A stretch of DNA of 37,814 nucleotides from Nitrospirota bacterium (GTDB lineage Bacteria > Nitrospirota > Leptospirillia > Leptospirillales > Leptospirillaceae): contig DAHVAL010000003.1 in NCBI GenBank assembly GCA_027314645.1, forward strand, positions 131,192 to 169,005, written 5' to 3'. Of the stretch, positions 4,307-37,395 are shown in pieces (within the stretch, counting starts at the first letter, position 1; every line of letters begins with the position of its first letter). Under the pieces are notes generated by a model. The model did no database searches. It worked only from the letters and a program-made list of their open reading frames with translations, and had not been told where the DNA came from. A program made the translations under genes and the position numbers.

Positions 4307-4309
4307 AAC

Positions 4310-5632: not shown

Positions 5633-7332
5633 GCCTCCCTCCCCGGCAAGAGACTTCGAAGCCGTCCGGTAAGCCGGTCGAACGGCTCGATGAGGCGGTG
5701 CGACACAAAAAATTCGAGCATCCCCCTGTTTAAGAAAAACAGGTACAAGGCTTCCTGACGCGATAGGACCCAGGCCGGAAGAACGATTTCTCCCCGAACG
5801 CCCCGCAGAAGGGAGACCCCCCACCCCACGACGATCAATCCTGTGATGAGGAGAACGATCGGTGTGAACAGGACCCACCCGACGCCTCCCGAAGCGAAGA
5901 AAAGGGACCGGGCCGCCGGATCGGGATAAAGAAAGATATTGAATCGATGGGCGGCCTGAATGTACCCGAAAACGAAGAGAACCATGAGGACGGTCCAGGG
6001 GACCGCGGCAGTGAACGAATCAAACATCCGTGCCCGGGTGAGACTGATCGCCGCCTGGGACACTGTCACCCAGCTAAAGAAAAGGAATACGACCGTCCCT
6101 TCTTCGCGGGACAAGTGGATTCCTGCCAGTTGGTGCGCCCCCAGGAGGATGACCAGGGGAAGAACGAGTGTGACCAAGGCCGCCGGAAGAATTCTGGACA
6201 AACGAAAAACCTCAGGGGTCAGTGGTTCGATGGCCGTTCCCCTGGGAAGGACAGGGTCTTCCCGGGCGATATGAATCCCCATTCCCGACTCAAGAAACAG
6301 GGTGGCTTTAAAGATGCCGTGGGCAATCAGATGGAATACGGCTAAGGAGAACGCCCCCAGGCCGCACTCCATCGTCATGTATCCCATTTGGCCCATGGTC
6401 GAGAACCCAAGTTTTCTTTTCACATCACTTTGGGTCAACATGGTCGAGGAGCCGAAGATGGCGGTCAGAAATCCTGCGATAAAGACCACATGCATCGTCA
6501 TCGGAGAGTGGGCAAAAATCAGGGAGGTCCGATTCATCAGGAACCCCCCGATATTGACGATTCCGGCATGCATCAGGGCCGAGACGGGGGTCGGTGTCTC
6601 CATCGTATCGGGAAGCCACCCGTGGAGCGGAAATTGGGCGGATTTCGCCATGCATCCCCCAAACAGGCAAAGGGTCATCCCCATAAGACTCCCTTGGGAA
6701 ACAAGGGTGGGGGAATCATGGAGTAAAGCGGCCATGCGTTGAATATCCAACGTATGAAACATCCGCTCCGCCAAAAGAAGGGCGACAAGAAAAAAGGCGT
6801 CTCCGATCCGGTGGATGATGAAGGTTTTGTGGGCGGCCATGACAGAATTGGTGCGCAAGCGGTTGTGGGACATGAGAAGGGAAAGTCCTAAACTCATGAG
6901 CTGCCAGAAGATAAACAGGAGAAGAAGGTTCTGGCTTGTGACGAGAAACAGGAGAATTCCCGTCTCCACGCCGATCAGGGCGAAAAAGCGGCCATATCCG
7001 GGTTCACTTAAAAGGTATCGGAGGGAGTAGGTCTGAACGACCGCACTCACACCGGTGATGAGAAGGATCATCACCCCCGAAAGGCGATCAATCCCCCACC
7101 TGGGCGGATCGGTCAAACCCGGAAGATGGAAGGGAAGAGTGCAGAAGATTGGTCCGCTCGACACAACATGGACCAAAAACCACACTCCCAGGACAAAGGC
7201 CATGGCGGTCGTGCCAAGAGACATATACGCACGTCGGGAATGGCCAGATGGTCTGAGCCAATCGACAAGCAACAGAAGTCCTCCTCCGAAAAGAGGGAGG
7301 GAGGGAAGAAGGACTGCCAGCTCTGAATACAT
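5629..7332 (-). CDS. dabB: DabB-type proton-conducting membrane subunit (NuoL/MrpA antiporter family)
   Basis: Start chosen at ATG 7332 (MYSELAVLLP) behind GGGAGG; the product has 567 residues. The body is a NuoL/ND5-like proton_antipo domain: ETGILLFLVTSQNLLLLFIFWQLMSLG in the region of the conserved glutamate helix, then MAKSAQFPLHGWLPDTMETPTPVSALMHAG with the lysine- and proline-bearing helices typical of proton-translocating subunits, followed by KRKLGFSTMGQMGYM and HLIAHGIFKATLF. DabB is the membrane subunit that couples the proton-motive force to DabA. It is first in a tightly overlapping block dabB-membrane gene-dabA-PII-like gene, all minus strand. A lone NuoL-like gene next to dabA is diagnostic of the DAB system rather than of complex I. 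The C-terminus (GMLEFFVSHRLIEPFDRLTGRL) is amphipathic and resembles the lateral-helix region of NuoL. Confidence 0.9.
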   Translation of the reverse strand: MYSELAVLLPSLPLFGGGLLLLVDWLRPSGHSRRAYMSLGTTAMAFVLGVWFLVHVVSSGPIFCTLPFHLPGLTDPPRWGIDRLSGVMILLITGVSAVVQTYSLRYLLSEPGYGRFFALIGVETGILLFLVTSQNLLLLFIFWQLMSLGLSLLMSHNRLRTNSVMAAHKTFIIHRIGDAFFLVALLLAERMFHTLDIQRMAALLHDSPTLVSQGSLMGMTLCLFGGCMAKSAQFPLHGWLPDTMETPTPVSALMHAGIVNIGGFLMNRTSLIFAHSPMTMHVVFIAGFLTAIFGSSTMLTQSDVKRKLGFSTMGQMGYMTMECGLGAFSLAVFHLIAHGIFKATLFLESGMGIHIAREDPVLPRGTAIEPLTPEVFRLSRILPAALVTLVLPLVILLGAHQLAGIHLSREEGTVVFLFFSWVTVSQAAISLTRARMFDSFTAAVPWTVLMVLFVFGYIQAAHRFNIFLYPDPAARSLFFASGGVGWVLFTPIVLLITGLIVVGWGVSLLRGVRGEIVLPAWVLSRQEALYLFFLNRGMLEFFVSHRLIEPFDRLTGRLRSLLPGREA

Positions 7333-22120: not shown

Positions 22121-22169
22121 TGGTAGGCACGGGCGGTTTCGAACCGCCGACCTCTACCGTGTCAAGGTA
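22121..22169 (-). other. Attachment-site scar: 3' half of a tRNA-Val(GAC) gene
   Basis: On the minus strand the sequence runs from the anticodon loop (TTGACAC, anticodon GAC) through GGTAG, the variable loop, a T-arm GGCGG-TTCGAAA-CCGCC and the acceptor strand CGTGCCT-A-CCA. The matching 5' half (acceptor AGGCACG, D-arm, CTACC) is absent; upstream there is A/T-rich sequence with a poor ATACC substitute. A 3' tRNA half with CCA and no 5' half is the displaced attachment core left by an integrated element. Not a functional tRNA. Confidence 0.85.
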
Positions 22170-22273
22170 TTAAAAACCTATTTCCATACTCGCTGCCTTT
22201 TAATATTATCCATAAATTTAAATAAGATACAAAATAATAAACAACCATGATTAACCATCGTTTTCCGATATCA

Positions 22274-22339: not shown

Positions 22340-23185
22340 CTAACCGATTCCCCCAGCCGGCAAAAAATCCCCTGTGGGATCTTCGCTCAAACTGATATAT
22401 TCAAGACGCCATTGATCCACTTTTCTGAGATCGGACAATGTTATTGAAGTGTCGGCCACGGCTTGGCAGTTCTCAAGCGCAATTTCATCCGAAGCCTCCG
22501 GAGTACCGTAGACGCTATGAAAAAGCTTGATGAGATCTCCCGCAACTTTTTCAGCCGCCTTTCTTACAGTGGAACCGCCTTCTATCGCATCGTAAACGAC
22601 CAAAATGGAGAGGAGATACGGGTCTCCGGCCACCAACTCATTGTTTCTCCCTTCGCCCAGATCGAAAAAAAGCCCGACCAGATTGCGGGATTCTGGCTCC
22701 AATATCTTCTCGATTTTTTTCTCGACCGTCTTTTTTCCGATCAACTTCCGGAGTCTGTTTTCGAATGCGTTGGGGAAGGCAGGTCTTCCATAACGGGCTG
22801 CCAGCCATTGCTTCAACGCGCGCTTCTGATTATCTGCCAACTTAAAACTCGGATCTCCCATTCGAAATTTTGAGAGTTTTCTCTTCTCGACCCGACTCCT
22901 GCCAGAAAATCGAAGGTCAAGGCAAAGTGATTGATCGGTCCCATCAGAAAACAAAAGGTGCAAACAACGTGGATTCCTTGCATTTACGAATTTTGGATCA
23001 GGAGATGAAGCTATCTCGCAAACAATGACCTCTACGAACTCCTCACCTTCATTCGGCAGATCGCAATCGTGGGAAATGACGATCACGCGATTCTTTGAGT
23101 CTTTGGGCTCTACCAGACCCAGTTCCCGAGCAACCTCGTCCGTCAAAACGTCCCCCTGCCGCCATAGGGTATCGCGCCCGAGCAT
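22340..23185 (-). CDS. Uncharacterised protein with ISHDCDL motif, third gene of a TIGR04255 cassette
   Basis: 281 residues, ATG 23185 with AAAGGG upstream. The N-terminus reads LWRQGDVLTDEVARELGL, then VIVISHDCDLPNEGEEFVEVIVCEI and VNARNPRCLHLLF; a conserved His-Asp-Cys-Asp in such a short motif suggests a metal or catalytic site. The C-terminal half (residues about 110-281) is helical and includes LVGLFFDLGEGRNNE and YLLSILVVYDAIEGGS. I have seen proteins with this motif only as unnamed hypotheticals in variable regions and cannot assign an activity. The gene follows the HTH gene by 18 bases and the TIGR04255 gene two genes back, same strand, so the three probably form one functional unit. 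Confidence 0.8.
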   Translation of the reverse strand: MLGRDTLWRQGDVLTDEVARELGLVEPKDSKNRVIVISHDCDLPNEGEEFVEVIVCEIASSPDPKFVNARNPRCLHLLFSDGTDQSLCLDLRFSGRSRVEKRKLSKFRMGDPSFKLADNQKRALKQWLAARYGRPAFPNAFENRLRKLIGKKTVEKKIEKILEPESRNLVGLFFDLGEGRNNELVAGDPYLLSILVVYDAIEGGSTVRKAAEKVAGDLIKLFHSVYGTPEASDEIALENCQAVADTSITLSDLRKVDQWRLEYISLSEDPTGDFLPAGGIG

Positions 23186-23203
23186 CTTGGCCCTTTCTAA
23201 AAT

Positions 23204-23839
23204 CTACTCAATGGAACCGGGAAGCGAGATATAGGACTGCCAATCATTTGTGGATTTGGACTTGGATGACGACAGACCGGATTTCCTGTAGGAATTCTCC
23301 ATGGCTTTGGCTTCAATGATCAGGGTCTTTACAGGCTCATCAATGCTCTCACCTGACCTGAAGAGATCCATCAGGGACCGCCCGCCAAAAGTCTTCATTT
23401 TTAACAATGACCCGGCACGCAAAACTTCCGACTTCCGAAAATCATCCGCTATCCGGCTGAATTCGGCTATCCGGGTACTTTTATCCTGCTCAGGAGTCGA
23501 GGTTCCTGACATCCACTTGTAAACGGTTTGACGAGAAACATCGAAAAGAAGGGCCAGATCCGAGATCGATGGGTCAAACACGCCGCGGATGTTTTCAATG
23601 TGCTCTGCAACTGTTCTCACATCAATCTGCTCAACATCTTCAAACGCTGCATCAGACGAATCAATAATGAATGGAACCCGCGTCTGGACATACGAACTCC
23701 ATCCACGAGCATGATCCATTGAATAGTTACATCCAGTTCCAGTCAGGAGGAGCATGCCAATACCTATAACGACATCTCTTACCACAAAAATCGGCTCTGT
23801 CGATGGAACCGTTTGCGTAGGTGCGGGAAAGATATACAT
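23204..23839 (-). CDS. HTH-domain protein with hydrophobic N-terminal segment, middle gene of the cassette
   Basis: Start at ATG 23839 (MYIFPAPTQ) with GGGGGA upstream; 211 residues. A hydrophobic stretch near residues 19-35 (VVRDVVIGIGMLLLTGTG) could be a membrane anchor or a buried strand. An XRE/Cro-like helix-turn-helix follows near residues 85-125: ISDLALLFDVSRQTVYKWMSGTSTPEQ, then a helical tail. The C-terminal 80 residues (LRAGSLLKMKTFGGRSLMDLFRSG) are unfamiliar. It lies 18 bases after the TIGR04255 gene. The likely role is autoregulator or DNA-binding component of the cassette; the TTGACA repeats at 24698-24734 are candidate targets. Confidence 0.8.
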   Translation of the reverse strand: MYIFPAPTQTVPSTEPIFVVRDVVIGIGMLLLTGTGCNYSMDHARGWSSYVQTRVPFIIDSSDAAFEDVEQIDVRTVAEHIENIRGVFDPSISDLALLFDVSRQTVYKWMSGTSTPEQDKSTRIAEFSRIADDFRKSEVLRAGSLLKMKTFGGRSLMDLFRSGESIDEPVKTLIIEAKAMENSYRKSGLSSSKSKSTNDWQSYISLPGSIE

Positions 23840-23857
23840 TATTTCCCCCAATTTTTC

Positions 23858-24643
23858 TCAGGCCCAAATAGCCTTGGAATGGTCTGTGGTCGTGGCTTCA
23901 AAAGCATTTTTGATTGCTTTATGTAACGAAACGATCTGGTTTCCGATTATGTCGAAATCAAGAGATATCTGACCCTCTGCGTAGTGATCCATATCAATGA
24001 CAGCATGGGAACAGACTTCTTTAATATCAAACCGAGCCTTCGGCAACAGCCCATGAGGAACAATACCGGGTGGGTAACCAAGCGGTGCGGTCACTTGGTG
24101 AACTCGAGCCATGAGTGTTCCTTTTTGCAAAAGAGGACCGCACTCGGTCTCGAAGACGGATTCGTACAAAGCATACTTCCTTATTGCACCAAAACGGATG
24201 CCGCAAAGTCCTTCAGCAAGATACTGATCGACGCTTTCACCCGGTTGAGGCAATACCGCATCAAGATACCGGAGTCCTAACCGACTCACATGATCAAGCT
24301 GCACTACTGCGTGGACTGTCTTGAGTCCACGCAACAGTTCTAGAATGAACTGCTCGTTCGTTTCGTAGTGCGTTGTATGGTAGGTTAAGGAAAAGTCGTT
24401 CAGTATAAATCCGGAGGTTCTATCCCCTTTTGTAAGCAACCAGGATATTGCCGGAACAATATTGGGAGAGATCATTTTTTGATCAGAGTGGGCAAACTGA
24501 AGATGCATCATTTGCAGCGGTTCAAAGAGGGTGTAGCCCTCCCGCCGAAGACTGTCCTGAACATCGCTCACATACTTGTTCATAGTTGCGACAGGACTGA
24601 ACTGAGCTTGAGCCAAGGCATAGTAGACAGGAGCATTGGACAT
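23858..24643 (-). CDS. TIGR04255 family protein, first gene of a three-gene cassette
   Basis: Start taken at ATG 24643 (MSNAPVYYALAQAQFSP); the ribosome site is weak. 261 residues. The N-terminus VYYALAQAQFSPVATMNKYVSDVQDSLRREGY is the signature of the sporadically distributed TIGR04255 family, whose function is unknown. Further features are ISWLLTKGDRTSGFILNDFSLTYHTTHYET and LDHVSRLGLRYLDAVLPQPGES. No transmembrane segment or known catalytic motif is visible. It heads the block of three same-strand genes with short gaps, preceded by a region of TTGACA repeats. Members are patchily distributed, which fits a mobile cassette; a defence or toxin-antitoxin-like role is possible but unproven. Confidence 0.85.
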   Translation of the reverse strand: MSNAPVYYALAQAQFSPVATMNKYVSDVQDSLRREGYTLFEPLQMMHLQFAHSDQKMISPNIVPAISWLLTKGDRTSGFILNDFSLTYHTTHYETNEQFILELLRGLKTVHAVVQLDHVSRLGLRYLDAVLPQPGESVDQYLAEGLCGIRFGAIRKYALYESVFETECGPLLQKGTLMARVHQVTAPLGYPPGIVPHGLLPKARFDIKEVCSHAVIDMDHYAEGQISLDFDIIGNQIVSLHKAIKNAFEATTTDHSKAIWA

Positions 24644-24697
24644 CTTCACACTCACGACTATACTCCTAGCAATAAAGGCGCATATTAAAATCATCGA

Positions 24698-24734
24698 TTG
24701 ACACTATGGTTGACAGTATACACTCCGGTTGACA
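24698..24734. repeat. Three TTGACA-type direct repeats, probable operator of the TIGR04255 cassette
   Basis: TTGACACT (24698), GGTTGACAGT (core at 24710) and GGTTGACACT (core at 24729), with a weaker TTTGACCG further on. Between the second and third lies TATACA. On the minus strand a TATACT with an upstream TTGTTT at 18-base spacing could be the cassette promoter, so the repeats would straddle it. Confidence 0.5.
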
Positions 24735-24948: not shown

Positions 24949-24992
24949 AAAACGCATGAATAAACCCACGCGCGCGTTTATTCGTGCGTTTT
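24949..24992. terminator. Long inverted repeat acting as terminator, overlapping a stop codon
   Basis: 17-bp arms AAAACGCATGAATAAAC (24949-24965) and GTTTATTCGTGCGTTTT (24976-24992) pair with a single T-G mismatch around a 10-base GC-rich loop; runs of T follow on both strands. The stop codon of the AlbA_2 gene (24978) lies inside the right arm, so translation termination and the hairpin are superposed. Probably bidirectional. Confidence 0.8.
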
Positions 24993-26681
24993 CATGATTA
25001 ACTCGTACTGGACAGCACGTCCCGTTCCTCCTATTTTTCTTAATTTCCCTTCATTTACAAGATGCTGAAGAAGCCGATAGGCCTGATGGCTCTTGATTTG
25101 ACAAAAGTTCGTTGCTTCCGCCCGCGAAATGGACCCTTTCTTTTCAGCGAAGGCAAGAAGTTTCTCTTCGAGACCCTTCCTCATCTCATGGGTGATTCGG
25201 AAAGGAGGAAGAACAGTGAGGGTTCCTGTGGTGATTGCTGACGAACTCGATTCTCCAGAAAACTCAATTCTTTTCGACTGAAGGTTCCGGCTCTTGAGGT
25301 CGTCCATTTTTCCCCGAATCTCCCGGGAAGATTTTTGCACGATGCGGGCTGCTTCTTCCAGGGAAAGAGTCCCTCGATCCCACCAGGCACGGAGTATGAG
25401 GAGATCGTCAAGGTCAAGCGAGCGGCCGGAAAGACCTTCCTCAGTCACCATCCGGACAAAAGGAAGATCAGGAAGCCTACCGGAAAGAACAAGCACCACA
25501 TCGGTCGATGTGGTCCTCTCGTAGGAGGGGACGGCTCTCCCGTTTCTGAGTTGTTCGAAGAAAATCGTATCGATCCCACGGGCGGTCCGTTCCACATAGC
25601 CCACCCGCTTGAAAGCATCAGCCAACCTCGGATTTCTCGGGTGAGGAGCCGTCACAAGAAGAGTCTCCATCGAAACCCCTTCGGGAAGCCCTCCGGGGCT
25701 ACTGATCTCTAAGCGGTCCTTACGCCATTGGATATACACGGCATTGAGACGTGTGTAGTCCCGGTGAATCAGGGCATTCGCAACCGCCTCCCGAAAAGCC
25801 TTCTCCGAATAATCCGGAATTCCGACCCGCTTGAATCCAACCTGGATTTCTGTTTCCCGGTAGCGAGCACGAAACCGTCCCAGCAATTCGTCCATCACCC
25901 GCAGAAGAGGCCACCGAAAAAAATCGTTGACGACGACCTGCCTATCCGACAACTCCTGAAAAGCCACTTCATGGGAAGGAAGAAAGCGATGCAGACTCTC
26001 TTCCTTCCCAAACAGGAGAAGCGCCAGAAGTCGTATCTCTGGACGGTCCTTTGGGCCATCCACACCTCCCAAGGCCCTCGCAAGATCCCAGTCGGACAAG
26101 GGAATCAGGGTCTGATCCCCCATGCCATGACTTTCTCGAATGGTCCGTCGAAACCTCTCGAACTCGAGAATATCAAGGTCGTTCCATGTGGCATCCGGAA
26201 CAGGAAGGGCGAGATACTCTGATCCGCCACGGTCGGAGATGTGTGACTGCATTTCATGGTAGTGGAAAGGAACACACTCCGGGCTCCCTTTTCCATCAAG
26301 TCTCCGTCGCAAATACTTGCCATCGGAAGTTCCGACGGGAAATCTGGCCTTGGGAATCTGAAAAACCAGAACAGATTTTCCGAGAATCGTTACCTCTTCC
26401 ACACGACAGATAATGGCAGGATGAGTTTTGCTCCCGATCATTGCCGCCACGCGGGAGAGGTTGGTTTTCGAATGTTCGTGACGAGGGCGGGCTCCCGTGA
26501 TCGCTCCGTCATCCTCGACCCCAACAAACAGATACCCCCATTCCTGATCATGCCGGTTGGCCAGGCAAACCACTGCCTCAACCAAATCCCTGTCGTTCAA
26601 GGACCCGGAACGTTCCCCCTTGAATTCGACATAGAGCGTTTCGCCCTGCTCAATCAGAGACCGAACTTCTTCAGGAGTCAC
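24978..26681 (-). CDS. AlbA_2/Schlafen-type ATP-binding protein, putative transcriptional regulator
   Basis: 567 residues from GTG 26681 (GGGGGA seven bases upstream). The N-terminal AlbA_2 (Schlafen AAA_4-like) domain covers about residues 5-150: ESxxxEFKG-like TLYVEFKGERSGSLNDRDLVEAVVCLANR, GYLFVGVEDDGAITG and KYLRRR. A GHKL-ATPase-like segment FREAVANALIHRDY (about residues 300-313) and EISSPGGLPEGV follow, then two winged-helix-like segments at the C-terminus (DLLILRAWWDRGTLSLEEAARIV; SISRAEATNFCQIKSHQAYRLLQHLVNEGKLRKIG). These proteins are common in mobile islands as presumed regulators or helicase-like factors; none of this shows the specific role. The upstream HTH gene is on the same strand 63 bases away. 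Confidence 0.88.
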   Translation of the reverse strand: MTPEEVRSLIEQGETLYVEFKGERSGSLNDRDLVEAVVCLANRHDQEWGYLFVGVEDDGAITGARPRHEHSKTNLSRVAAMIGSKTHPAIICRVEEVTILGKSVLVFQIPKARFPVGTSDGKYLRRRLDGKGSPECVPFHYHEMQSHISDRGGSEYLALPVPDATWNDLDILEFERFRRTIRESHGMGDQTLIPLSDWDLARALGGVDGPKDRPEIRLLALLLFGKEESLHRFLPSHEVAFQELSDRQVVVNDFFRWPLLRVMDELLGRFRARYRETEIQVGFKRVGIPDYSEKAFREAVANALIHRDYTRLNAVYIQWRKDRLEISSPGGLPEGVSMETLLVTAPHPRNPRLADAFKRVGYVERTARGIDTIFFEQLRNGRAVPSYERTTSTDVVLVLSGRLPDLPFVRMVTEEGLSGRSLDLDDLLILRAWWDRGTLSLEEAARIVQKSSREIRGKMDDLKSRNLQSKRIEFSGESSSSAITTGTLTVLPPFRITHEMRKGLEEKLLAFAEKKGSISRAEATNFCQIKSHQAYRLLQHLVNEGKLRKIGGTGRAVQYELIMKTHE

Positions 26682-27861: not shown

Positions 27862-29178
27862 GTGAGTACTCCAAAATCCCTTCCATTCCGAAAGAGGGTC
27901 GACGAAAAAGCCAGTCCGGAATTGAAGTATGTGGCCTATCTTTCGGAACGCAAGATCCCGGAGTCCGATCTCCCTCTGTTTGCTGCTCCCGATGAAGGAT
28001 CCGGAGTCCTCTACAAATGGGCCGGAACCCACTGGCAGATGATTTCCCCCTTCGACTGTGAACGAATGGCGTGGAAGTGGCTAACAGAGAACTCCCCAAA
28101 TGAAGCAACGCCCCGAAAAGCTCAATCCTGTTCCAACGCCGCCTGCCTTGAAATTTTCAAGATTCCCTCTCCCCAGATGACCGCGATCGTCATTCCGACA
28201 AAATCGGGATACCTGCACATCGGACAGACCGACCCTCCCTTGAATCTTCTGGATGCCGATCCCGCCCTCGGAATCACCTATTGTCTCAATTGCGCCTATG
28301 ACCCCGAAGCTCCCGCCCCTTTATTCAAGGCGTTCACGGGAGAAATCCTGCCCGACCCGGATGTGCGGGACCTCGTCCAGGAATATGCCGGATACACCCT
28401 CCTGGGAGATACCCGCTATCAGAAGGCCCAATGGTGGATCGGCGCAGGCGCCAACGGGAAAGGAACACTGGCCCAGATCGTCGCGGCACTCCACCAACGG
28501 GCCAGCGCCCTGTCTATCGACAGTCTGGACGGCTTCCGGCTGGTCCCGCTCCTGGATGCCACACTGATCTACGTCGACGAGACGCCGAAAAAGATCGACG
28601 AACAGCGCCTGAAAACACTTCTGTCCGGCGATCTTGTTTCCATCGACCGCAAATACCGGGATCCCGTTTCCTTCCGTCCCAGCGCGAAATGGATCGTTCT
28701 CGGGAACGATCTCCCCGCGATCACAGACCAGTCCGACGGATTCTGGAGACGCTGGCATGTTATCCCCTTCCCCGTTTCCTTTACAGAAGAGAACCAGAAA
28801 CCACTTCTGGCAAAACAGATCATAGAAGCAGAACTGTCGGGGGTTTTGAACTGGGCTCTGGAGGGACTCCTGCGTCTTCTCGGAAGAGGACATTTTCTTC
28901 CTCCTCCCCGCACGGTCAGGGAAGCGATTCAGAAGGGGAAGAAAGAGACCAACAACGTCCTGGGCTGGATCGATGATGTCGAACCCGTTGTCTCCGGAAA
29001 TCCGACAACTCCCAAGGACGATCTCTACGCCGCCTACCGGGAATGGTCGTTCAAAAACGGAACGGCTCCCGTTTCCTCGACCAAATTCTGGACAAGACTC
29101 CGCCAGATTTATCCGGAGATCGTCGAAGAACGGGAAGGTTCCGGCAAACGCCGGAGGATGGTCAATGTTGTTCTTTGA
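27862..29178 (+). CDS. D5/P4-type SF3 helicase, replication protein of the element
   Basis: 438 residues from GTG 27862, six bases after the preceding stop; the ribosome site is poor, so translational coupling is likely. The SF3 helicase motifs are seen as Walker A GAGANGKGT (K200, T202), Walker B LIYVDE (D239, E240) and sensor-like SAKWIVLGNDLPAI, then GFWRRWHVIPF, the signature of phage/plasmid P4 alpha-type and D5 helicases. The N-terminal 150 residues contain a D5_N-like segment (YCLNCAYDPEA, FKAFTGEI, DLVQEYAGYTLLG) but no primase (TOPRIM) motif, so the priming function is missing or encoded separately. The protein would unwind the element's origin. Confidence 0.9.
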   Translation: MSTPKSLPFRKRVDEKASPELKYVAYLSERKIPESDLPLFAAPDEGSGVLYKWAGTHWQMISPFDCERMAWKWLTENSPNEATPRKAQSCSNAACLEIFKIPSPQMTAIVIPTKSGYLHIGQTDPPLNLLDADPALGITYCLNCAYDPEAPAPLFKAFTGEILPDPDVRDLVQEYAGYTLLGDTRYQKAQWWIGAGANGKGTLAQIVAALHQRASALSIDSLDGFRLVPLLDATLIYVDETPKKIDEQRLKTLLSGDLVSIDRKYRDPVSFRPSAKWIVLGNDLPAITDQSDGFWRRWHVIPFPVSFTEENQKPLLAKQIIEAELSGVLNWALEGLLRLLGRGHFLPPPRTVREAIQKGKKETNNVLGWIDDVEPVVSGNPTTPKDDLYAAYREWSFKNGTAPVSSTKFWTRLRQIYPEIVEEREGSGKRRRMVNVVL

Positions 29179-29326
29179 CGATCCCGATTCCTCGACATCG
29201 GAATATTCCGGAAGAGCCGACGAGAGGCCGGATTGTCTTGGGATATGGCAAGACCGGACGTCCGGGGTTGCCTGTTTCGGCCGGGTCCTTTCCAACCATG
29301 GGTGGACGCGGAAAACCGTTGCGTGA
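29165..29326 (+). CDS. Small hypothetical protein overlapping the helicase 3' end
   Basis: 53 residues (MLFFDDPDSSTSEYSGRADE and on to WTRKTVA). GGAGG lies seven bases before ATG 29165 and the frame overlaps the helicase stop by 14 bases, an arrangement usual for coupled genes. No family recognised; could be a chance frame. Confidence 0.35.
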   Translation: MLFFDDPDSSTSEYSGRADERPDCLGIWQDRTSGVACFGRVLSNHGWTRKTVA

Positions 29327-29428
29327 CAGACCTCCCGGACATCCGTCCGACCTGTCCGGGGACTTTCAGAAAAACATTTTCCCGCATAGGCGTGCGCACG
29401 CATTAGTTCCAAAAACAATCCGGACGGG

Positions 29429-29722
29429 TTGGACGAGCTTACAGAAAAAAATCAGGAGAAGGATTTTAAACGTCCGACCAAGGCTGGATGCACCCCGGAC
29501 GCCTATTCATGCCCGGACGAATTTTCATGTGTCAAAACGAATGATACATCGGAGTCTGGCCGGGAATGGGGATGGGTGTGCGGCTCTGTTGAACACGGGA
29601 AAGATCCGGACGAGATTAGCCGGCAACTCGAGATCCGGGCTCGCAACCGGGGAAAGAATGACCCTGAAGGATATGCCAGACGGACCGTCGCGAGGGCGTT
29701 GTCCTTCACGGGCCAGGTCTGA
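29429..29722 (+). CDS. Conserved-looking small plasmid-type protein
   Basis: 97 residues from TTG 29429; no ribosome site is obvious, so the start is uncertain. The C-terminal half (KDPDEISRQLEIRARNRGKNDPEGYARRTVARALSF) has the helix-turn-helix pattern with paired arginines typical of small proteins encoded beside plasmid replication genes. Four cysteines in the N-terminal half (C21, C28, C34, C51) could bind a metal. Function unknown; located between the replicative helicase and the ParA-like gene. Confidence 0.6.
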   Translation: MDELTEKNQEKDFKRPTKAGCTPDAYSCPDEFSCVKTNDTSESGREWGWVCGSVEHGKDPDEISRQLEIRARNRGKNDPEGYARRTVARALSFTGQV

Positions 29723-29845
29723 AACGAGGAGAGGGAAAAACGAATGCGGGCGGAGTTCCCGGAGCCCGGACGCCGCAATGCCAGAGTTGTCTGGCAGGTG
29801 AGCGGAAATGGAAGCAAAACTCAAATCACAGGACAGGGAGGAAAA

Positions 29846-30571
29846 ATGAAAAAGACGATCTATCTCTCTCACGGCGAAAAAGGCGGAGTCGGAAAGTCAA
29901 GAGTGGCCATGGTTCTGGTCGATTATCTGATGAAGACCGGGAATCCGGTTGCGCTTGTCGAAGGTGACAAGTCCGGAATGGATGTCGGCCAGCGGTATTC
30001 CGGCCTGGTCGAGACCGGCTATATCAATTTGAACCGCCCGGATGCGATGGAAGAGGCCTTTTCAAGTCTGGGACGGTGGCTCGAAGACCATGCCAAAGAC
30101 AAAAACGTCGTCGTGAACCTGCCCGGTCAGGCCTCGGACACGCTCGACCAGTTCGCCGCCCTGCTCGGAAATGTAGCGGAAATGCTGGGGTACGACCTTT
30201 CCGTTTTCTATTCGGTCGGTCCCCTGGATCTGCATACAGGAAACCTTCAGAACTCCATCCAGACCGGACTGATGTCCGCCTCCCCACTCTCCCGCCAAAT
30301 CGTCGTCATGAGCGAACACGGAGGGCCGGTTACCGGGTTCCACTGGTTCGTATCGAAAGCCCGCGAGAAATTTCTTGGGGCGGGCGGAAAAGAAGGAATC
30401 ATGCCAAAACTGAAACCCGACCACCTGGAAAAAATGGTGCGGGAACTGCCGGGCGGGTATTCGGCCATGCTCGACCGGAATAGCCAGATCAAAATTGCCG
30501 ACCGGGCCCTTCTCTTCAACTGGCTAAAAACCGCTCACGAGGTTGCGGCATTGGGGGTGAATCATGAATAA
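29846..30571 (+). CDS. ParA/MobD-like P-loop ATPase
   Basis: ATG 29846 is chosen for GGAGG six bases upstream; 241 residues. The deviant Walker A GEKGGVGKS (residues 10-18, K12 and K17) is that of ParA/MinD-type partition ATPases and of the MobD-like proteins of mobilisable plasmids. VALVEGDKSGMDVGQRYSG resembles the switch I region and VVVNLPGQASDTLDQF the Walker B/switch II region, with the NLPGQ motif seen in plasmid transfer-associated members. It overlaps the next gene by eight bases. It could serve partition of the excised element or mobilisation. Confidence 0.82.
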   Translation: MKKTIYLSHGEKGGVGKSRVAMVLVDYLMKTGNPVALVEGDKSGMDVGQRYSGLVETGYINLNRPDAMEEAFSSLGRWLEDHAKDKNVVVNLPGQASDTLDQFAALLGNVAEMLGYDLSVFYSVGPLDLHTGNLQNSIQTGLMSASPLSRQIVVMSEHGGPVTGFHWFVSKAREKFLGAGGKEGIMPKLKPDHLEKMVRELPGGYSAMLDRNSQIKIADRALLFNWLKTAHEVAALGVNHE

Positions 30572-31283
30572 CCCCAGCTTGAGAGACGGAGTCTTGTCGA
30601 ATGTCCCCGAAGCGGCTCACAAGGGCCTCCTTGAACTGGCTCTGGAGCATGGCATCAACAACCCCGACGACCCGGTCTGGGCCATGGTCGGTCTGGCCTG
30701 GTCTGCAGCCAAAGGAGCGGATCTGACCCGGGAGACGCTTGAAACCATCCGGAAAGAGACGGCCTCCATTCCCGAAAAGATTATGAAGGGCACCGAACAG
30801 GCGGGGGAGAATATCCGGACGATCATCGATACGGAGATCACCGAAAAGATGGACGATCTCCGGGGAACTCTCGTCAAAGACATCGACAAGGCCGCCGGGA
30901 GGGGAGCTGAGGCGATCCGCAAGGCACAGGACGGTCTGGACGACGATATCGACAAAAAGCGGGAGACCGCCGTCCAGGAATTTGCGACAGCCGCAGGAAA
31001 AGCGGCCGAATCCCATGCCAGATCGGCTTTCGAGCGGGCCCGGACCGTTTCGTGGGCCACGGTTGTCCTCTCTCTTCTTGGGTCCGCGATTATCGTCTCC
31101 GGAGGAACCATCGGACTGGGCTATCTTCTCCATCGGGTCACTCCGCCGGAGATGAGGGTCTGGTCCGACCCGGATGTTCCGGGCAAATACGAGTTTCAGT
31201 TTGAGAATCCGATCCGGTCAAAAAATCTTCCGGACTGTCCCTCCGGTTTCCAATGCTGGGATTTTAACTTTCAACAGAATTGA
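30564..31283 (+). CDS. Coiled-coil membrane protein (MobE-like position)
   Basis: 239 residues, ATG 30564 inside the end of the ParA-like gene. Residues about 60-155 are charged and helical (ETLETIRKETASIPEKIMKGTEQAGENIRTII, KMDDLRGTLVKDIDKAAGRGAEAIRK), a likely coiled coil. One transmembrane segment follows at about 163-186 (SWATVVLSLLGSAIIVSGGTIGLGYLL), and a short tail with two cysteines ends the protein (DCPSGFQC). Position and make-up resemble membrane partners of mobilisation ATPases; I do not recognise the family. Confidence 0.75.
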   Translation: MNNPSLRDGVLSNVPEAAHKGLLELALEHGINNPDDPVWAMVGLAWSAAKGADLTRETLETIRKETASIPEKIMKGTEQAGENIRTIIDTEITEKMDDLRGTLVKDIDKAAGRGAEAIRKAQDGLDDDIDKKRETAVQEFATAAGKAAESHARSAFERARTVSWATVVLSLLGSAIIVSGGTIGLGYLLHRVTPPEMRVWSDPDVPGKYEFQFENPIRSKNLPDCPSGFQCWDFNFQQN

Positions 31284-31306
31284 CCTTTAACCGAAGGGAG
31301 AAAGAA

Positions 31307-31690
31307 ATGAGCCATCGAATCATGATCACCATTCCGGACAATTCCTATCACCATTTGAAAGAATTGAGCACGCTCTACCAGGTTTCCCTTTCTGCCTTGG
31401 CCGGCTCCATGATCGAGGAGAAACTTTCCGGCAGGCAGGGGTTCGAGGAGGAGACCCGGGAACTGTTCGGGAATATCACAAGACGCCTGGGAAAGATGGC
31501 CTACAAACTCTCCCGAACCGAAATCCTGCTCGACGAATTTCTGGACGCCTATCTTTTCTATACGCCGGAAGTTCCCAAGGATTTTCCGGGACGGGACGCC
31601 TTGTATCAATCTGCGGACAATCGGCACAAGGCGCTTCTCTCCTCCGTCCAGGACCGGCTCAAGAACAAGGAAGAGTTGATTCCGGAGTGA
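31307..31690 (+). CDS. Ribbon-helix-helix DNA-binding protein (relaxosome/partition accessory)
   Basis: ATG 31307 follows GGGAG by six bases; 127 residues. MSHRIMITIPDNSYHHLKELSTLYQVSLSALAGSMIEEKL has the strand-helix-helix periodicity of ribbon-helix-helix proteins. The remainder (ELFGNITRRLGKMAYKLSRTEILLDEFLDAYLFYTPEVP) is helical and resembles the oligomerisation part of MobC-like accessory proteins. The three-gene order ATPase, membrane protein, RHH fits a mobilisation or partition module; its DNA site may be the palindromic region at 31951-32047. Confidence 0.72.
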   Translation: MSHRIMITIPDNSYHHLKELSTLYQVSLSALAGSMIEEKLSGRQGFEEETRELFGNITRRLGKMAYKLSRTEILLDEFLDAYLFYTPEVPKDFPGRDALYQSADNRHKALLSSVQDRLKNKEELIPE

Positions 31691-32076
31691 CGCGATCAGA
31701 GGAGAGCAAGATAAAAGAGGGTGTTGCGCGGCGGCAAAAAAATGGCCGCAATCAGCCTTCCCGACTGCAACACCAAGCTTTTCGGTATTGCAGTTTCAGA
31801 TCTTGTCAGCTTCCGTCGGGCCTCTTCCGTGATACGGTCAAATGCCCCAACCCCGGAAAGCCTTGGAATTGGCCATTTTCGAGAGAATTCTCCGAAAAGG
31901 ATCATTGGTGCCATTTTTTCCCTCAATGCTCCTCTTCGAACCGTATTTTGACCTCGTCTTGTCCTGTATAGGTCTGATTCCCGACAATCAGGGGTAAAAC
32001 AGGACGACAAGCGAACCAAAAAGAGGAAGACTCAGACCAATACAGGCCCCATTAAGGGGAAAAGGAGGACAATCAG
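31691..32076. other. 386-base palindrome-rich non-coding region, possible oriT or control region
   Basis: No open frame is convincing. Left structure: GTGTTGC (31722) / GCAACAC (31767) enclosing GCGGC/GCCGC around an A-run. Right structure (31958-32046): CCTGTATAGGTCTGA (31963-31977) pairs with TCAGACCAATACAGG (32032-32046), one mismatch; nested inside are CTGATT/AATCAG with a 6-base loop (31974-31991) and CTTGTCCTGT versus ACAGGACGACAAG. It lies between the RHH gene and a small HTH gene. Confidence 0.5.
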
Positions 32077-32424
32077 ATGCCAGTCAGGATCACTCCGAAA
32101 AGAATGACGGCCAGAGTTGCCGCCTACAGCGATGCGATCAAATCGGCAAGGGCAGAAGGACTGACCTGGAATGAAATCGGGTCACTGATCGGAATCGAGA
32201 GCGGAATCAAGCTGAGACGGGCTTTTGTCCGGGCAACAGCAGGGATCGAATCCGGCCGTCTGGCTCCTCGACAATTTCCCTTTCCAGGATTACAATCGGT
32301 CCAATCTGATGAATTGCCAGTCATACCCGACACATCCAAGGCGATTTCTGAATCCCGGGTCATCCAAGATAAGAGCCCCTTTGGGAAGAAACGCGAACCG
32401 ACGATCAAATTCGACGACGATTAG
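32077..32424 (+). CDS. Small HTH-like basic protein
   Basis: 115 residues, ATG 32077 with GGAGG eight bases upstream. IKSARAEGLTWNEIGSLIGIESGIKLRRAFVRA (residues about 20-52) is a helix-turn-helix of the kind found in small plasmid control proteins. The C-terminus is basic then acidic (FGKKREPTIKFDDD). It probably binds the palindromes immediately upstream. No family name can be given. Confidence 0.7.
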   Translation: MPVRITPKRMTARVAAYSDAIKSARAEGLTWNEIGSLIGIESGIKLRRAFVRATAGIESGRLAPRQFPFPGLQSVQSDELPVIPDTSKAISESRVIQDKSPFGKKREPTIKFDDD

Positions 32425-32589
32425 AGCCTGTTCCTGGCGTTTCTCTCTTCGTCCACTTCCTCTTTGAAATTGACCAGGGTCCAAAGAGGCCTCCCATTGG
32501 AGGGAAAAAAGATCGTGTCTTGAAAAGCACCAGATAATTCGGCCCGGATTCGCAGATCTCTCCAAAACCTTTCTTGACGGGAGGTCTCC

Positions 32590-33867
32590 TTGTCTGATTT
32601 TCGCTTTCTTCACGCAGCAGACATCCACCTCGACAGTCCTCTCCGGGGCTTGTCGGGTCAGGAAGGCGAAAGTGCTATGAGAATTCGGGGAGCCACCCGG
32701 GAAGCCCTCGAGAACCTGGTCAGCCGGGCCATCGATGAGGAGGTCTCCTTCGTGATCATTTCGGGAGACCTCTATGACGGAGACTGGAAAGACTACCGGA
32801 CAGGACTTTTCTTCGTTAAACAAATGGGACGCCTTTCGGAAACCGGGATCTCCGTCTTCCTGCTTTATGGAAATCACGATGCCGAGAGCCAGATCACCCG
32901 CCGGCTTCTTCTCCCATCCAATGTCAGGACCTTTTCTTCAAAAAAGCCAGAGACATTTACACTTCCAGAGATCGGCGTAGTCCTGCATGGCCAAAGTTTC
33001 CGGCAGCGAGATGTTACAGATAACCTTGCCACCAATTATCCCCCTCCCGTTCCCGGGAATTTCAATATCGGTGTTCTTCACACAGGTCTAGGAGGCATGG
33101 GAGGCCATGTCAACTACGCTCCCTGCACTCTCGACGAACTCATCAAAAAAGGCTACGACTACTGGGCGCTCGGCCATGTTCACCAGACGACGGTCCTTCA
33201 CGAGTGGCCCCACGTTGTCTTCCCCGGAAACATCCAGGGGCGGCACATCCGGGAGACGGGTCCCAAAGGTGTCTGCCTCGTGACCGTTAAAGACGGGGAA
33301 ATCCGGGAGATGACGACAATCCCGGTCGATGTCGTGCGATGGGCTCGGCTTTCCGTGGATGCCGAAGGATGCCATCGCATGACCGAGGTCGTCGACCGCA
33401 TAGGAGCGGCTCTTGAAGAGGCTGTGACAACCCGGGCCGACGGTCGCCTCCTCGCCTGCCGTATTGAAATTGCGGGGCGCACCGGAGTTCACGGCCAACT
33501 CCTGTCTTCGGAAGAATCACTGGTCTCCAATACCAGGGCCGCGGCCTTGGGCCTTGGCTCCGATCGGGCCTGGATCGAAAAGGTGGAGGTGTCCACTCGC
33601 CCACTCGTCGATGAAACACTGTTGCACGACCGGGAGGATGCCCTGGGAGAGTTTTCTCATCTGCTGGAACAGGCAAAAGACGACAAAGACCTTCTGGACC
33701 AACTGGAAGGAGACATTGGCGGACTGGTCCGAAAGCTTCCCCATGAAATTCGCACAGATGCCGAAGATCCGACACTGGAATCCGCCATCAAAGGCGATTA
33801 CGGAACCATGATCGACCAGGTGAAATCCTTCCTCATGGCGCGGCTATCCCCCGCTAATGGAGAATAA
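32590..33867 (+). CDS. YhaO/SbcD-like metallophosphoesterase (DNA nuclease subunit)
   Basis: TTG 32590 is the start (GGGAGG five bases upstream); 425 residues. All Mre11/SbcD-type phosphoesterase motifs are present: ADIH (D11, H13), SGDLYDG (D60), YGNHD (N95, H96, D97), LHTG (H164) and LGHVHQ (H196, H198). These bind two metal ions for exo/endonuclease activity on DNA ends. The C-terminal part (residues about 265-425) is helical and should contact the ATPase partner. The partner gene follows after three bases. The pair resembles B. subtilis YhaO/YhaN and SbcDC; on a mobile element it may process replication intermediates or invading DNA. Confidence 0.9.
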   Translation: MSDFRFLHAADIHLDSPLRGLSGQEGESAMRIRGATREALENLVSRAIDEEVSFVIISGDLYDGDWKDYRTGLFFVKQMGRLSETGISVFLLYGNHDAESQITRRLLLPSNVRTFSSKKPETFTLPEIGVVLHGQSFRQRDVTDNLATNYPPPVPGNFNIGVLHTGLGGMGGHVNYAPCTLDELIKKGYDYWALGHVHQTTVLHEWPHVVFPGNIQGRHIRETGPKGVCLVTVKDGEIREMTTIPVDVVRWARLSVDAEGCHRMTEVVDRIGAALEEAVTTRADGRLLACRIEIAGRTGVHGQLLSSEESLVSNTRAAALGLGSDRAWIEKVEVSTRPLVDETLLHDREDALGEFSHLLEQAKDDKDLLDQLEGDIGGLVRKLPHEIRTDAEDPTLESAIKGDYGTMIDQVKSFLMARLSPANGE

Positions 33868-33870
33868 CCC

Positions 33871-36800
33871 GTGAGGCTCGGCCGGCTCGACCTCATCCGG
33901 TACGGACGGTTTACGGACCTCTCCCTTGCGTTTCCCGTCATGACTCCGGATCTCCATATCATTTTCGGACCGAACGAGGCGGGGAAATCAACAGCCCTTT
34001 CGGCAATAGAGGATCTTCTCTTCGGTATTCCTCACAACTCCCCGCTCAACTTTCTCCACGACTATTCCAGTCTCAGAGTCGGAGCCGTTCTGGAAAAGGA
34101 GGGGGAAGGTCTCGAGATCCGGCGCCGGAAGGGCTCCAAGGAAACTCTCCTCACGCGGGACGACAATCCGATCATCACGGGAGAAACCATCCTCGGCCCC
34201 TACCTCACGGGGGCCGACCGATCCTTCTTCTCCCGGATGTTCAGCCTCGACAACGAAAGATTACGCCTCGGAGGAAAAGAGATCCTTGAAGCCCAGGACG
34301 AAGTCGGCCAGATGCTCTTTTCTGCCGGATCCGGGTTGAGCGGGCTCCGGGATATACTTCGAGGGCTCGAAGAGGAAGCCGACACCCTCTGGTCGTCCCG
34401 AAAAGCTGCCAAGAGGACTTACTATCAGGCGGACGATCGCAGAGAGGAGGCCGAGAAAGATCTTCGCGTACATCTCATCACCCCAACAAAATGGCTGGAG
34501 GTCAAGGATCTTCACGATGCCGCCCAGAACACTTACGATACCCTTGAAAAGGAAATCGAGAAGAAAACATCCGAAAAGAGGAAGTTGGATCGCATCCGCC
34601 GTTCCTACCGGAATGCCCGGGGAATAGAAGAAATTGATCGGGAACTTTCCACTCTGGGAGATGTTCCCGCCTTTCCGGAGGGAGCCCTTGAAACTCTTCT
34701 GGCCGCGGAACGGAAAGAAGAAACGGCAATGGCCGAGGTTCGGATACTGACCGAACAACTCGAGACCGCCCGCAGAAAACTTTCCGAACTGACGTTCGAC
34801 GAAACGCTTTTCCATCATGAGGAAGACGTCCAGAAGCTCCACGAAGGAAGAATCCATGTACGGGACGGGAAAGCCTCCCTTCCAAAGCGTGAAACCGAGC
34901 TTGCCGCGACAAATGGCCAATTTTTGCTTTTGGCATCGGCTCTCGGATGGAAAGAACAAGAAGTCGGCGCTTTAATAGAACTCATTCCTCCACGGGGCAA
35001 GACGATCGAAGCCCGCCGTCTTTTGACAAACAGGGGCACGCTGCTGTCTGCGGTTGAAGCCGCCCAACAGGCCCTCGGAGAATCGGAAGACAAGCTCGGA
35101 AACCTTTCCCGGTCTCTGGAATCTTTGGGAACTTCAGCCGATCTGTCCATATTGGCCGCAGTCGCAAAGAACGCCCATGATCAGGGGGATCTCTCGGCCC
35201 ACATCCGGACCGCCAAAGCGGAACTCGATGCCGCCCTTGAGGAACTCAAGCGACTGGCCGGTTCGGCGATTCCCCCTCCCGACGCGGCGATCCTCCCGGG
35301 GAAGGTTCTGCCTCCCCGAGATATGGTTCAGGCCCACCGGGACACCGTCAGGGATCTTGAAAAGAAACAGCAGGAAATCTCGGAACGGATTCGTTCCGCC
35401 AGACAGGACCTCACCCGACAACGCAAGGCCTATGAACATCTTGTCCATGATGAAGAAAGGATCGCACCAGAGGTTCTCGGGCAGGCCCGGCAACACCGTG
35501 ACGCCGGATGGACCTTGATCCGCCAGATTTATATCGAGCATCTTTCCATCCCTCCGGATGTGGTCCGGAGTTTCACGAAGGAGGGGGAAGAATTGATCGA
35601 ACCCTATGAGGCCGCCGTCGGCAAGGCGGATGAGATTGCTGATCTCCGGGTCGAAAAGGCTGAAGCCGCCGCCCGCCTTGTGGTGATGGCTCGTCAAATC
35701 CAGGATCAGGAGGAAAATCTCCAGGAACTGGAAAACGAAAAGTCCGCCCTCGACACGGACAGCCAATCTCACGACGACGCATGGAAAAGGATGTGGTCTG
35801 GATTGCCTTCCAACCCTCTCGCTCCCGACGTCATGCTCGAATGGCTCGGGATTCGAAAGGAGTGGCTCGGAGCTCTCGAACGGAAATCGGAAATCGAACG
35901 AAAGCTTGAGACTCTTCTCAGTCAGGAGGAGGAGACACGACAGTCCGTCCTTTCCGTCCTATCGGGGAATGGCTCAACCGGATTCGATCTATCGGCCCTT
36001 TCCGGCCTTCCTCTTTCTGTTCTCCTTAAAAGAGTTGATGCGATCCTTTCCGAGAACGACCGAATCCAGGAACAAAAGCAGAATCTTGAGGCTGAGATAC
36101 TCCAGGCAAGAGCCCAGATCTCCCGGAAAAAAACCTCCCTCGAAAAGGCCGAAAAAGCCCGGGCGGACTGGGAGGAGCAGTGGTCCTCGGCGGTCACGGA
36201 TCTCGGACTCGACCCTCGTTCCTCATCTGAAATCGTTACAGGGCAGGTGGATTCGATCGAGGACATGCGTACCGTCGCCGTGCAGATCAATGAACTCCGT
36301 CACAAGAGAATCGGAACTATTCAGCGGGATTGCGAGGCGTTTGCCCAGGAAGTCCGGAGAATTTTACCGATCCTGGCTCCGGACCTGACCGCGTTGGACG
36401 CCGAGGAGGCTGTCTTAAGGCTCGAGAGACGGCTGGACGATGCAAAGAAATTAAACGAGATCAAGAAGGAGAAGGATGCGTCGATCTTCGCTCTCGATCA
36501 AGAGATTGGCACATTCGAGTCCTCCCTGAACGAAGCCCGAGAAATCATTTTCCGTCTCAAGTCGCTGGCAGGGGTTGAGGAGATTTCGGAATTGAAGGCC
36601 GCAATCTCGAAATCCGATCGGGTGAGCGGTCTTCAGGAGGAAAAAAAGCGGCTCCTCCGGGTTTTGACCGAAGAAGGGGACGGGCTTCCTGTTCCGGATC
36701 TCCTGGCCGAATGCGAAGGGGTCGACCTCGATCAAATCTCGGCAAGGGAAGAATCGGTGTCTCAGGATCTCGAAGCTTTGCGCAAACAGCTTCTCGAAGC

Positions 36801-37395
36801 CCGGGACCGTCGCATGGAAACTCGGAGGGCCTTCGAATCGGTGGGAGGAGATGATACTGCGGCAAAATCCGAGGCCAAGAGGCAGGAAGCCCTTGCCGAA
36901 ATGAAGGAGATCGCAACTCGTTACACGCATGTGCGGACTTCAGCCATTCTTCTCAAATGGGCCATCGACCGCTACCGCCGTGAAAAACAGGCTCCTCTCC
37001 TGAAAACCGCCAGCAGTTTGTTTGCCCTATTGACGGGACATTCCTTCGTCTCACTCCGGATCGATTTCGACGACCAGGACCGCCCTCAATTGGTCGGAGA
37101 ACGGTCAGACGAGTCAACAGTCCATGTCTCAGGAATGAGCACGGGTACGGCCGACCAGCTTTATCTTGCTCTTCGGGTCGCGTCAGTTCTGGAATACCTC
37201 GATCGGGCGCCGGCTCTTCCGTTTATAGCCGACGATCTGTTCATCAACTTCGACGATGAGCGTGCTTCGGCGGGATTCAAAGTCCTGAGCCAACTGGCCG
37301 AGAAAACACAGGTGATTTTTTTCACCCATCACCGCCATCTGGTTGAGATTGGAAAGAAGAGTCTCGGGTCTTCCATTTCAGTAATCTCACTGTGA
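33871..37395 (+). CDS. YhaN/SbcC-like SMC-family ATPase
   Basis: 1174 residues from GTG 33871, three bases after the nuclease gene stop. The N-terminal AAA lobe has MRLGRLDLIRYGRFTD and Walker A FGPNEAGKST (K39, S40), the YhaN-type P-loop; the C-terminal lobe has the ABC signature-like MSTGTADQLYLALR (S1090 onwards) and Walker B FIADDLF (D1121, D1122), then FFTHHRHLVEIG, the His-switch region. Between lie about 800 residues of long coiled coil broken near the middle (PSNPLAPDVMLEWLG), where a zinc hook would be; I see no CxxC, so it is hookless like YhaN. It couples ATP to DNA-end processing by the nuclease subunit. Confidence 0.9.
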   Translation: MRLGRLDLIRYGRFTDLSLAFPVMTPDLHIIFGPNEAGKSTALSAIEDLLFGIPHNSPLNFLHDYSSLRVGAVLEKEGEGLEIRRRKGSKETLLTRDDNPIITGETILGPYLTGADRSFFSRMFSLDNERLRLGGKEILEAQDEVGQMLFSAGSGLSGLRDILRGLEEEADTLWSSRKAAKRTYYQADDRREEAEKDLRVHLITPTKWLEVKDLHDAAQNTYDTLEKEIEKKTSEKRKLDRIRRSYRNARGIEEIDRELSTLGDVPAFPEGALETLLAAERKEETAMAEVRILTEQLETARRKLSELTFDETLFHHEEDVQKLHEGRIHVRDGKASLPKRETELAATNGQFLLLASALGWKEQEVGALIELIPPRGKTIEARRLLTNRGTLLSAVEAAQQALGESEDKLGNLSRSLESLGTSADLSILAAVAKNAHDQGDLSAHIRTAKAELDAALEELKRLAGSAIPPPDAAILPGKVLPPRDMVQAHRDTVRDLEKKQQEISERIRSARQDLTRQRKAYEHLVHDEERIAPEVLGQARQHRDAGWTLIRQIYIEHLSIPPDVVRSFTKEGEELIEPYEAAVGKADEIADLRVEKAEAAARLVVMARQIQDQEENLQELENEKSALDTDSQSHDDAWKRMWSGLPSNPLAPDVMLEWLGIRKEWLGALERKSEIERKLETLLSQEEETRQSVLSVLSGNGSTGFDLSALSGLPLSVLLKRVDAILSENDRIQEQKQNLEAEILQARAQISRKKTSLEKAEKARADWEEQWSSAVTDLGLDPRSSSEIVTGQVDSIEDMRTVAVQINELRHKRIGTIQRDCEAFAQEVRRILPILAPDLTALDAEEAVLRLERRLDDAKKLNEIKKEKDASIFALDQEIGTFESSLNEAREIIFRLKSLAGVEEISELKAAISKSDRVSGLQEEKKRLLRVLTEEGDGLPVPDLLAECEGVDLDQISAREESVSQDLEALRKQLLEARDRRMETRRAFESVGGDDTAAKSEAKRQEALAEMKEIATRYTHVRTSAILLKWAIDRYRREKQAPLLKTASSLFALLTGHSFVSLRIDFDDQDRPQLVGERSDESTVHVSGMSTGTADQLYLALRVASVLEYLDRAPALPFIADDLFINFDDERASAGFKVLSQLAEKTQVIFFTHHRHLVEIGKKSLGSSISVISL

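Follow-up and report, generated by a model that had tools for sequence, protein, structure and literature searches.

A mobile three-gene unit headed by a TIGR04255 protein as a candidate toxin-antitoxin-type module in a Nitrospirota integrative element

The window that we analysed is a stretch of 37,814 nucleotides from a Nitrospirota bacterium (GenBank assembly GCA_027314645.1, contig DAHVAL010000003.1, positions 131,192 to 169,005 of the forward strand). It contains three intact genes on the minus strand, here called A, B and C. Throughout, we used the gene starts of the homologues (GTG 24655 for A, ATG 23839 for B and ATG 23185 for C); the open frames of A and B extend to 24694 and 23851, respectively. 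The features of the locus are as follows.

22128–22172, minus strand: tRNA 3' half (Val/GAC-like by reading of the sequence), probably left over from an attachment site at the element edge
22340–23185, minus strand: gene C, 281 residues, ATG start at 23185; protein with a predicted MazF-like fold and W-x-QG, HDCD and W/LA.RY.R motifs, candidate toxin
23057–23074, minus strand: SHDCDL motif of C (residues 38–43), with C41 and D42 invariant in 118 homologues
23204–23839, minus strand: gene B, 211 residues, ATG start at 23839; helix-turn-helix protein, candidate antitoxin and repressor
23459–23569, minus strand: helix-turn-helix of B (VSRQTVYKW), from the HTH_3 match and alignment; helix type tracks operator presence
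23732–23791, minus strand: hydrophobic N-terminal stretch of B, ending in a conserved G-T-G (residues 34–36)
23858–24655, minus strand: gene A, 265 residues, GTG start; TIGR04255 family protein, constant partner
24698–24734, minus strand: putative operator, four tandem same-strand TGTCAA-type sites 48–79 nt before A, spacing 12-7-12
24729–24734, 24717–24722 (degenerate, TGTATA), 24710–24715 and 24698–24703, minus strand: the single operator sites

With these starts, the gaps between A and B and between B and C are exactly 18 nt each, so the earlier sequence-only reading, which had described three same-strand genes with 18-base gaps, held. Its start of A, at 24643, had to be corrected, this being an internal ATG whereas the homologues use the GTG at 24655. 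Also borne out was its claim that the genes lie in more A/T-rich DNA than the chromosome, with a GC content of 45–48% in the cassette against 52–61% across most of the remaining window. Its placement of the genes at the entry of an integrative element is supported by the tRNA 3' half, which ends at about 22172, 170 bp from C. Only this half, and no full tRNA, is present at 22128–22172, and no second copy of it was found in the assembly; the far attachment end of the element is off the contig, which stops at the window end. The unit is present in 2 of the 14 genomes of the genus that were searched and adjoins an element end in both. In the close relative that carries it (G028), the cassette is 92% and the tRNA-end DNA 80% identical at the nucleotide level, with extra DNA separating the two. 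Because the relative shares these two segments and nothing beyond them, the unit behaves as cargo at the attachment end of the element.

The next gene along the element (24978–26681) encodes a Schlafen AlbA_2 and RecG-C-terminal-like protein that is distantly similar to proteins of defence. The element core (27862–37395) encodes a P4-type primase/helicase, a ParA/MinD-like protein and an SbcD/SbcC-like pair, the large protein of which matches PADLOC LmuB at 1e-16. Elsewhere in the window, positions 4001–6000 show a strong AT skew (0.26–0.42) across minus-strand membrane-protein genes, which is likely a coding effect of their hydrophobic products.

Using C alone as the query against plasmids, phages, genomes and viral contigs, we gathered 128 loci with a C identity of 20–84%, a few of them being identical or nearly identical loci, and then located A and B in these loci by profiles. 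The order A-B-C on one strand was found in 124 of the 128 loci, far above chance. Among the exceptions, L045 and L126 start at contig edges, L128 is a short and weak match, and L079 has B and C with no A found. The genome records cover Pseudomonadota, Nitrospirota, Verrucomicrobiota, Chlamydiota, Actinomycetota, Myxococcota, Bacteroidota and Deinococcota, and the plasmid records add Cyanobacteriota; we state the spread as at least eight phyla, several of the assignments depending on metagenome bins. The copies are almost always on plasmids, prophages or integrative elements. These results show that A-B-C is a fixed, mobile unit. The sequence-only reading had proposed co-occurrence as a check, which is met almost without exception, and had offered rare co-occurrence, or membership of B and C in unrelated housekeeping families, as a refutation, which failed. 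An adjacent, co-oriented gene pair kept across genomes, as expected of a type II toxin-antitoxin system, is provided by B and C in essentially every locus, their identities as antitoxin and toxin being inferred. A few copies of C look broken. In Meiothermus taiwanensis (L004, 5941–6789, and L076) the conserved WRQG is interrupted by a stop at its W, as read in L004, and the candidate toxin is likely inactivated with A and B intact; in L040 (4292–5118) C is in two pieces, a probable frameshift or stop.

C was described from sequence alone as an unnamed protein with an ISHDCDL motif. This description held: the protein has VISHDCDL, and no family was matched in Pfam, NCBIfam or PADLOC. It matches the unnamed phage family phrog_34320 at 4.5e-5. 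The AlphaFold model of C (pLDDT 88.8, pTM 0.72) returned MazF chains as 12 of its 13 best PDB matches, with a probability of up to 0.99, target TM-scores of about 0.42–0.57 and E-values of 0.01 or weaker; all 13 are chains or complexes of MazF-type toxins. The similarity covers the first ~140 residues; a C-terminal domain of ~140 residues is extra. A direct profile comparison between C and PemK/MazF fails (0.7%). In hhalign, C matches a short third-gene family with the motif QGD..TQ[ST]CDL (93%, E 2.5e-7), and this family in turn matches PemK/MazF (84%, E 7.8e-6). PF02452 was not matched by the C of the window, nor was it among 25 of the 32 families matched by 80 C proteins, and the catalytic Arg (RP motif) and Thr (PIT motif) of MazF are not conserved in C or in the intermediate family. 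Conserved instead are W-x-QG, C41-D42 and the RY.R motif. Direct membership in MazF is thus rejected on Pfam and the catalytic residues, and modelling predicts that C has a MazF-like fold without being a PF02452 member. The suggestion that ISHDCDL is a metal or active site was not upheld as regards the metal: a metal site has not been shown, since the histidine is replaced by Q or G in some members and only C-D is invariant, within a predicted MazF-like fold. That C is a toxin is inferred, and its target and reaction remain open.

The assignment of the first gene to TIGR04255, a family of unknown function, was confirmed at 124.4 bits against a cut-off of 30, over residues 17–277 and the whole domain. 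The model of A (pLDDT 93.6, pTM 0.90) folds as a tandem alpha/beta sandwich. Its closest structural matches were S-adenosylmethionine decarboxylase, TATA-binding protein and a phage SAM lyase, with low TM-scores throughout; SecB was not matched by family or fold. R37, R125, R129, E165, D221 and D223 are conserved within the C-type subfamily of A. Across the whole TIGR04255 family, P9, Y97, Y130 and F252 alone reach about 90% and there is no invariant catalytic set. Conservation of this kind points to binding by A more than to a catalytic activity common to the family. A was also considered as a member of PADLOC systems and rejected, with no match even when four divergent members were included. 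No paper naming TIGR04255 was found in the open-access literature searched; subscription papers, preprints and supplements (e.g. the tables of PMC9122126) were outside this search, and the unit may be listed there.

The reading of B as a helix-turn-helix protein with a hydrophobic N-terminus also held, on a weak HTH_3 match (E 2.5e-4) and a 19-residue Kyte-Doolittle mean of 1.88. Of 124 B proteins, 56 have a stretch that reaches at least 1.6, and the conserved G-T-G often comes after it. In many homologues (e.g. L017, L027, L049, L055 and L090) the stretch is short or weak, and a G-T-G-like motif persists. Upstream of A lies a head-to-tail repeat, TGT[C/A]AAC, usually placed every 12 bp and sometimes as two pairs (12-7-12). 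We counted it in the 200 bp upstream of A in 71 non-redundant loci (C below 80% identity) and found two or more copies in 63, with 164 copies forward and 7 reverse where 16 were expected in all. Inverted-repeat operators showed little excess (5.85 versus 5.46); it was the direct repeats that stood out. The pattern was first seen in a repeat screen, so we place weight on the controls and on a further test with modules. Three control regions gave the operator in 0–1 loci. In the second test, a separate survey of TIGR04255 loci sharing some genomes with the first set, the operator was found in 15 of 32 B-type modules with a MazF-like gene 3 and in one of four with another gene 3 (a zeta toxin), and in none of the 102 modules with a non-B gene 2. 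Loci without the operator mostly have changed recognition helices (RR, RP or RA instead of RQ), and about eight loci with an RQ helix also lack it. Because the operator is confined to B-type modules and the recognition helix is mostly altered where it is missing, B rather than A most likely reads the operator, although this rests on comparative genomics and binding is inferred. With the same reservation about binding, the upstream operator for autoregulation that is expected of a type II toxin-antitoxin system is present, as a conserved tandem operator found only in B-type modules. One locus (L265) has a B-like helix-turn-helix gene 2 and a zeta toxin instead of C with two operator copies kept, a natural toxin swap.

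As a change to the sequence-only reading, the cassette is a single branch within a far broader set of three-gene modules that TIGR04255 heads and whose toxins differ. TIGR04255 is carried by 28 of 274, 15 of 190, 21 of 194, 23 of 141, 47 of 246 and 15 of 198 genomes in six surveyed groups, that is, by 8–19% per group. Among 141 placed loci, a same-strand next gene within −40 to +60 bp was found in 133 of 139 and a third gene in 126 of 135; gene calling was mechanical here, and a few third genes (tRNA synthetase, Band_7) are plainly unrelated neighbours. The third genes belong to many families, including 45 MazF-like QGD..CD proteins (29 of these matched by the C profile), HEPN, PIN, Toxin_YhaV (6.6e-46), Zeta_toxin (5.6e-10), HNH/PtuB, DUF7689, a possible HicA (0.045) and several unknown ones, and three match PADLOC PDC-M32 B. 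The families of gene 2 and gene 3 covary, with 682 same-same pairs against 169 after shuffling (maximum 274), and the gene 2 preceding YhaV has a weak match to the PrlF antitoxin (0.0058, below the cut-off) after an 84-residue extension. The tree of A clusters by module, with 30 changes against 67.7 shuffled and a least possible number of 6, which indicates repeated switches. At the sequence level, the position of A is constant across bacteria, and the antitoxin-toxin pair that follows it is swapped. Because toxin families stand at gene 3, genes 2 and 3 covary, a PrlF-like protein stands at gene 2 and the A tree switches, we infer that the toxin is encoded by gene 3 and its matching antitoxin by gene 2, with A as the partner that stays constant. 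Two traits considered as common to gene 2 were not upheld: a hydrophobic N-terminus occurs in only 26 of 139 and belongs to B-type modules and some others, and a short N-terminal motif (GTG/SSS-like) across all module types was found in 12 of 47 against 9.4 by shuffling. In L145, L147, L173, L227 and L233, TIGR04255 is followed by a distinct gene 2 and by a third gene of an unnamed family (HVGLLY...LHLAR/LGW), possibly an unknown toxin type. The genome of the window itself carries a second TIGR04255 module of another type (L247, G000:C41, 193–3039), composed of an integrase, A, a WDGY gene 2 and an unknown gene 3; it, too, lies beside an integrase.

A link to defence comes from the surroundings of other copies. 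In 27 loci the unit lies 39–356 bp from a convergent P2 portal gene, mostly with a replication gene upstream. Of 5,426 complete E. coli genomes, 18 have one version of the unit, which lies in P2-like prophages in the interval from DinI/gpA to gpQ, and one further genome has a second version at the same position. One E. coli P2-prophage copy is at NZ_LR890508.1, 1373236–1375585. The gpA-gpQ interval of P2 is a hotspot shown to hold anti-phage systems (PMC9122126), and it also carries non-defence cargo. Placement in this interval applies to the enterobacterial homologues and not to the copy in the window. The flanks of other copies contain Thoeris, Druantia, MzaDE and methylase genes as well as integrases and terminases, with no background rate to set these against. 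No P2-like phage isolate with the unit was found among 50,697 phage records.

The closest functional parallel is with the TAC systems, such as CmdTAC and MqsRAC (PMC5105189, PMC6377645, PMC9519451, PMC11618068), which like the unit have three genes in a mobile, defence-linked setting. The chaperone of these systems is SecB-like; it protects the antitoxin and, in CmdTAC, senses a capsid protein (PMC5105189, PMC11618068). As in TAC systems, the TIGR04255 modules join one constant partner gene to exchangeable, unrelated toxin-antitoxin pairs. TAC antitoxins can have extra terminal extensions; possible counterparts are the hydrophobic G-T-G N-terminus of B, a feature that is not general in gene 2, and the 84-residue extension of the PrlF-like gene 2. 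In contrast to TAC systems, the constant partner is TIGR04255, with a predicted SAMDC/TBP-like fold, and no SecB-like gene is present; it is the first gene rather than the last, and B has its extension at the N-terminus, the addiction domain of TAC antitoxins being at the C-terminus. By analogy, A may correspond to the SecB of TAC systems while being unrelated to it. Compared with MazF/PemK (PF02452), C has an N-terminal domain that models on MazF and a profile link through the QGD..CDL family, but no PF02452 match and no catalytic Arg/Thr, having invariant QG, CD and Arg instead, plus the extra C-terminal domain. The toxins of PrlF-YhaV, zeta-toxin, HEPN, PIN and possibly HicA modules recur as gene 3 behind TIGR04255 in the sister modules, whereas the canonical pairs have no TIGR04255 gene. 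The antitoxin of the canonical YhaV pair is not known to have an 84-residue N-terminal extension. PanAT networks (PMC8832971) also pair a constant protein with many toxins, but they have two genes and an unrelated domain, and in the TIGR04255 modules the second gene varies with the toxin; the Panacea (DUF4065) domain had no Pfam match in A, B or C. The A protein of the PADLOC candidate PDC-M32 ends in the gene 2 domain of the commonest sister module (E 2.4e-9), but that system does not include TIGR04255 or the B and C genes.

On balance, we lean towards reading the unit as a mobile tripartite toxin-antitoxin-type module, probably anti-phage, with toxicity, neutralisation, binding and defence all inferred. 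Where the sequence-only reading had left defence, toxin-antitoxin and element maintenance undecided, the balance of evidence is towards a unit of the toxin-antitoxin type whose role is likely defence. B would repress the operon at the tandem, 12-bp-spaced TGT[C/A]AAC sites upstream of A and would restrain C. C would act as the toxin through a predicted MazF-like barrel with Q-G-D, C-D and Arg in place of the MazF catalytic residues. A would probably stabilise B or the B-C complex, perhaps via the hydrophobic N-terminus of B with its G-T-G, and may sense infection, by analogy with the SecB-like protein of CmdTAC. Against this reading, no toxicity, neutralisation, binding or phage data exist. 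The direct comparison of C with MazF fails and the catalytic residues are gone, A has low fold TM-scores and is not SecB, the hydrophobic N-terminus is not general in gene 2 and the P2 hotspot also has non-defence cargo.

Several other explanations share parts of this evidence. The unit could be an addiction or maintenance module, in which these toxin and antitoxin parts would penalise cells that lose the element and would not serve to stop phages. The mobile setting of almost all copies, the autoregulatory operator and the position beside an element end in both carrier genomes of the genus speak for it, but the exact placement in the exchangeable P2 anti-phage hotspot speaks against it, and simple addiction needs no constant extra gene A; we consider it unlikely. 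We also find little reason to expect that A is a direct, broad-range toxin neutraliser like the Panacea antitoxin domain, with B mainly a repressor or adaptor. A is the sole constant gene among modules with unrelated toxins, and constant antitoxin domains with many toxins exist (PMC8832971). However, it is gene 2, not A, that covaries tightly with toxin type, a PrlF-like antitoxin occupies gene 2 before YhaV, and the A tree has many module switches (30 against the least possible 6).

Two further explanations appear very unlikely. B might be a membrane-tethered regulator, held by an N-terminal anchor and released by phage membrane damage to switch on the operon or C, as the hydrophobic stretch in 56 of 124 B proteins, often with the G-T-G after it, might suggest; but many homologues have only a short or weak stretch and still keep the G-T-G-like motif, which suits a binding motif better. 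Alternatively, A might be an enzyme or ligand sensor for S-adenosylmethionine or a nucleotide, making the unit a ligand-triggered switch. The best folds (S-adenosylmethionine decarboxylase and phage SAM lyase) and the six charged residues conserved in the C-type subfamily are in its favour, but the TM-scores are low and the family as a whole has no invariant catalytic set.

Returning to the toxin-antitoxin-type reading, a bolder form of it, which we hold to be as open to doubt as to belief, is that a large class of tripartite toxin modules is built around TIGR04255 as a constant hub that had not been recognised. This hub would be a chaperone or infection sensor unrelated to SecB, arming MazF-like, YhaV, zeta, HEPN, PIN, HNH and unknown toxins with exchangeable antitoxins, and the toxin in the module of the window would combine a MazF fold with a new chemistry. 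With its conserved operator the module can easily be found and tested, and the E. coli P2-like prophages provide laboratory-ready copies of the unit. TIGR04255, a family of unknown function, gains a testable role that would apply to many modules. Known TAC systems have so far used SecB-like chaperones; if our reading is true, an unrelated partner would mean that the layout of toxin, antitoxin and helper has more than one origin, and this unrelated constant partner would offer a new way to study phage sensing by such modules.
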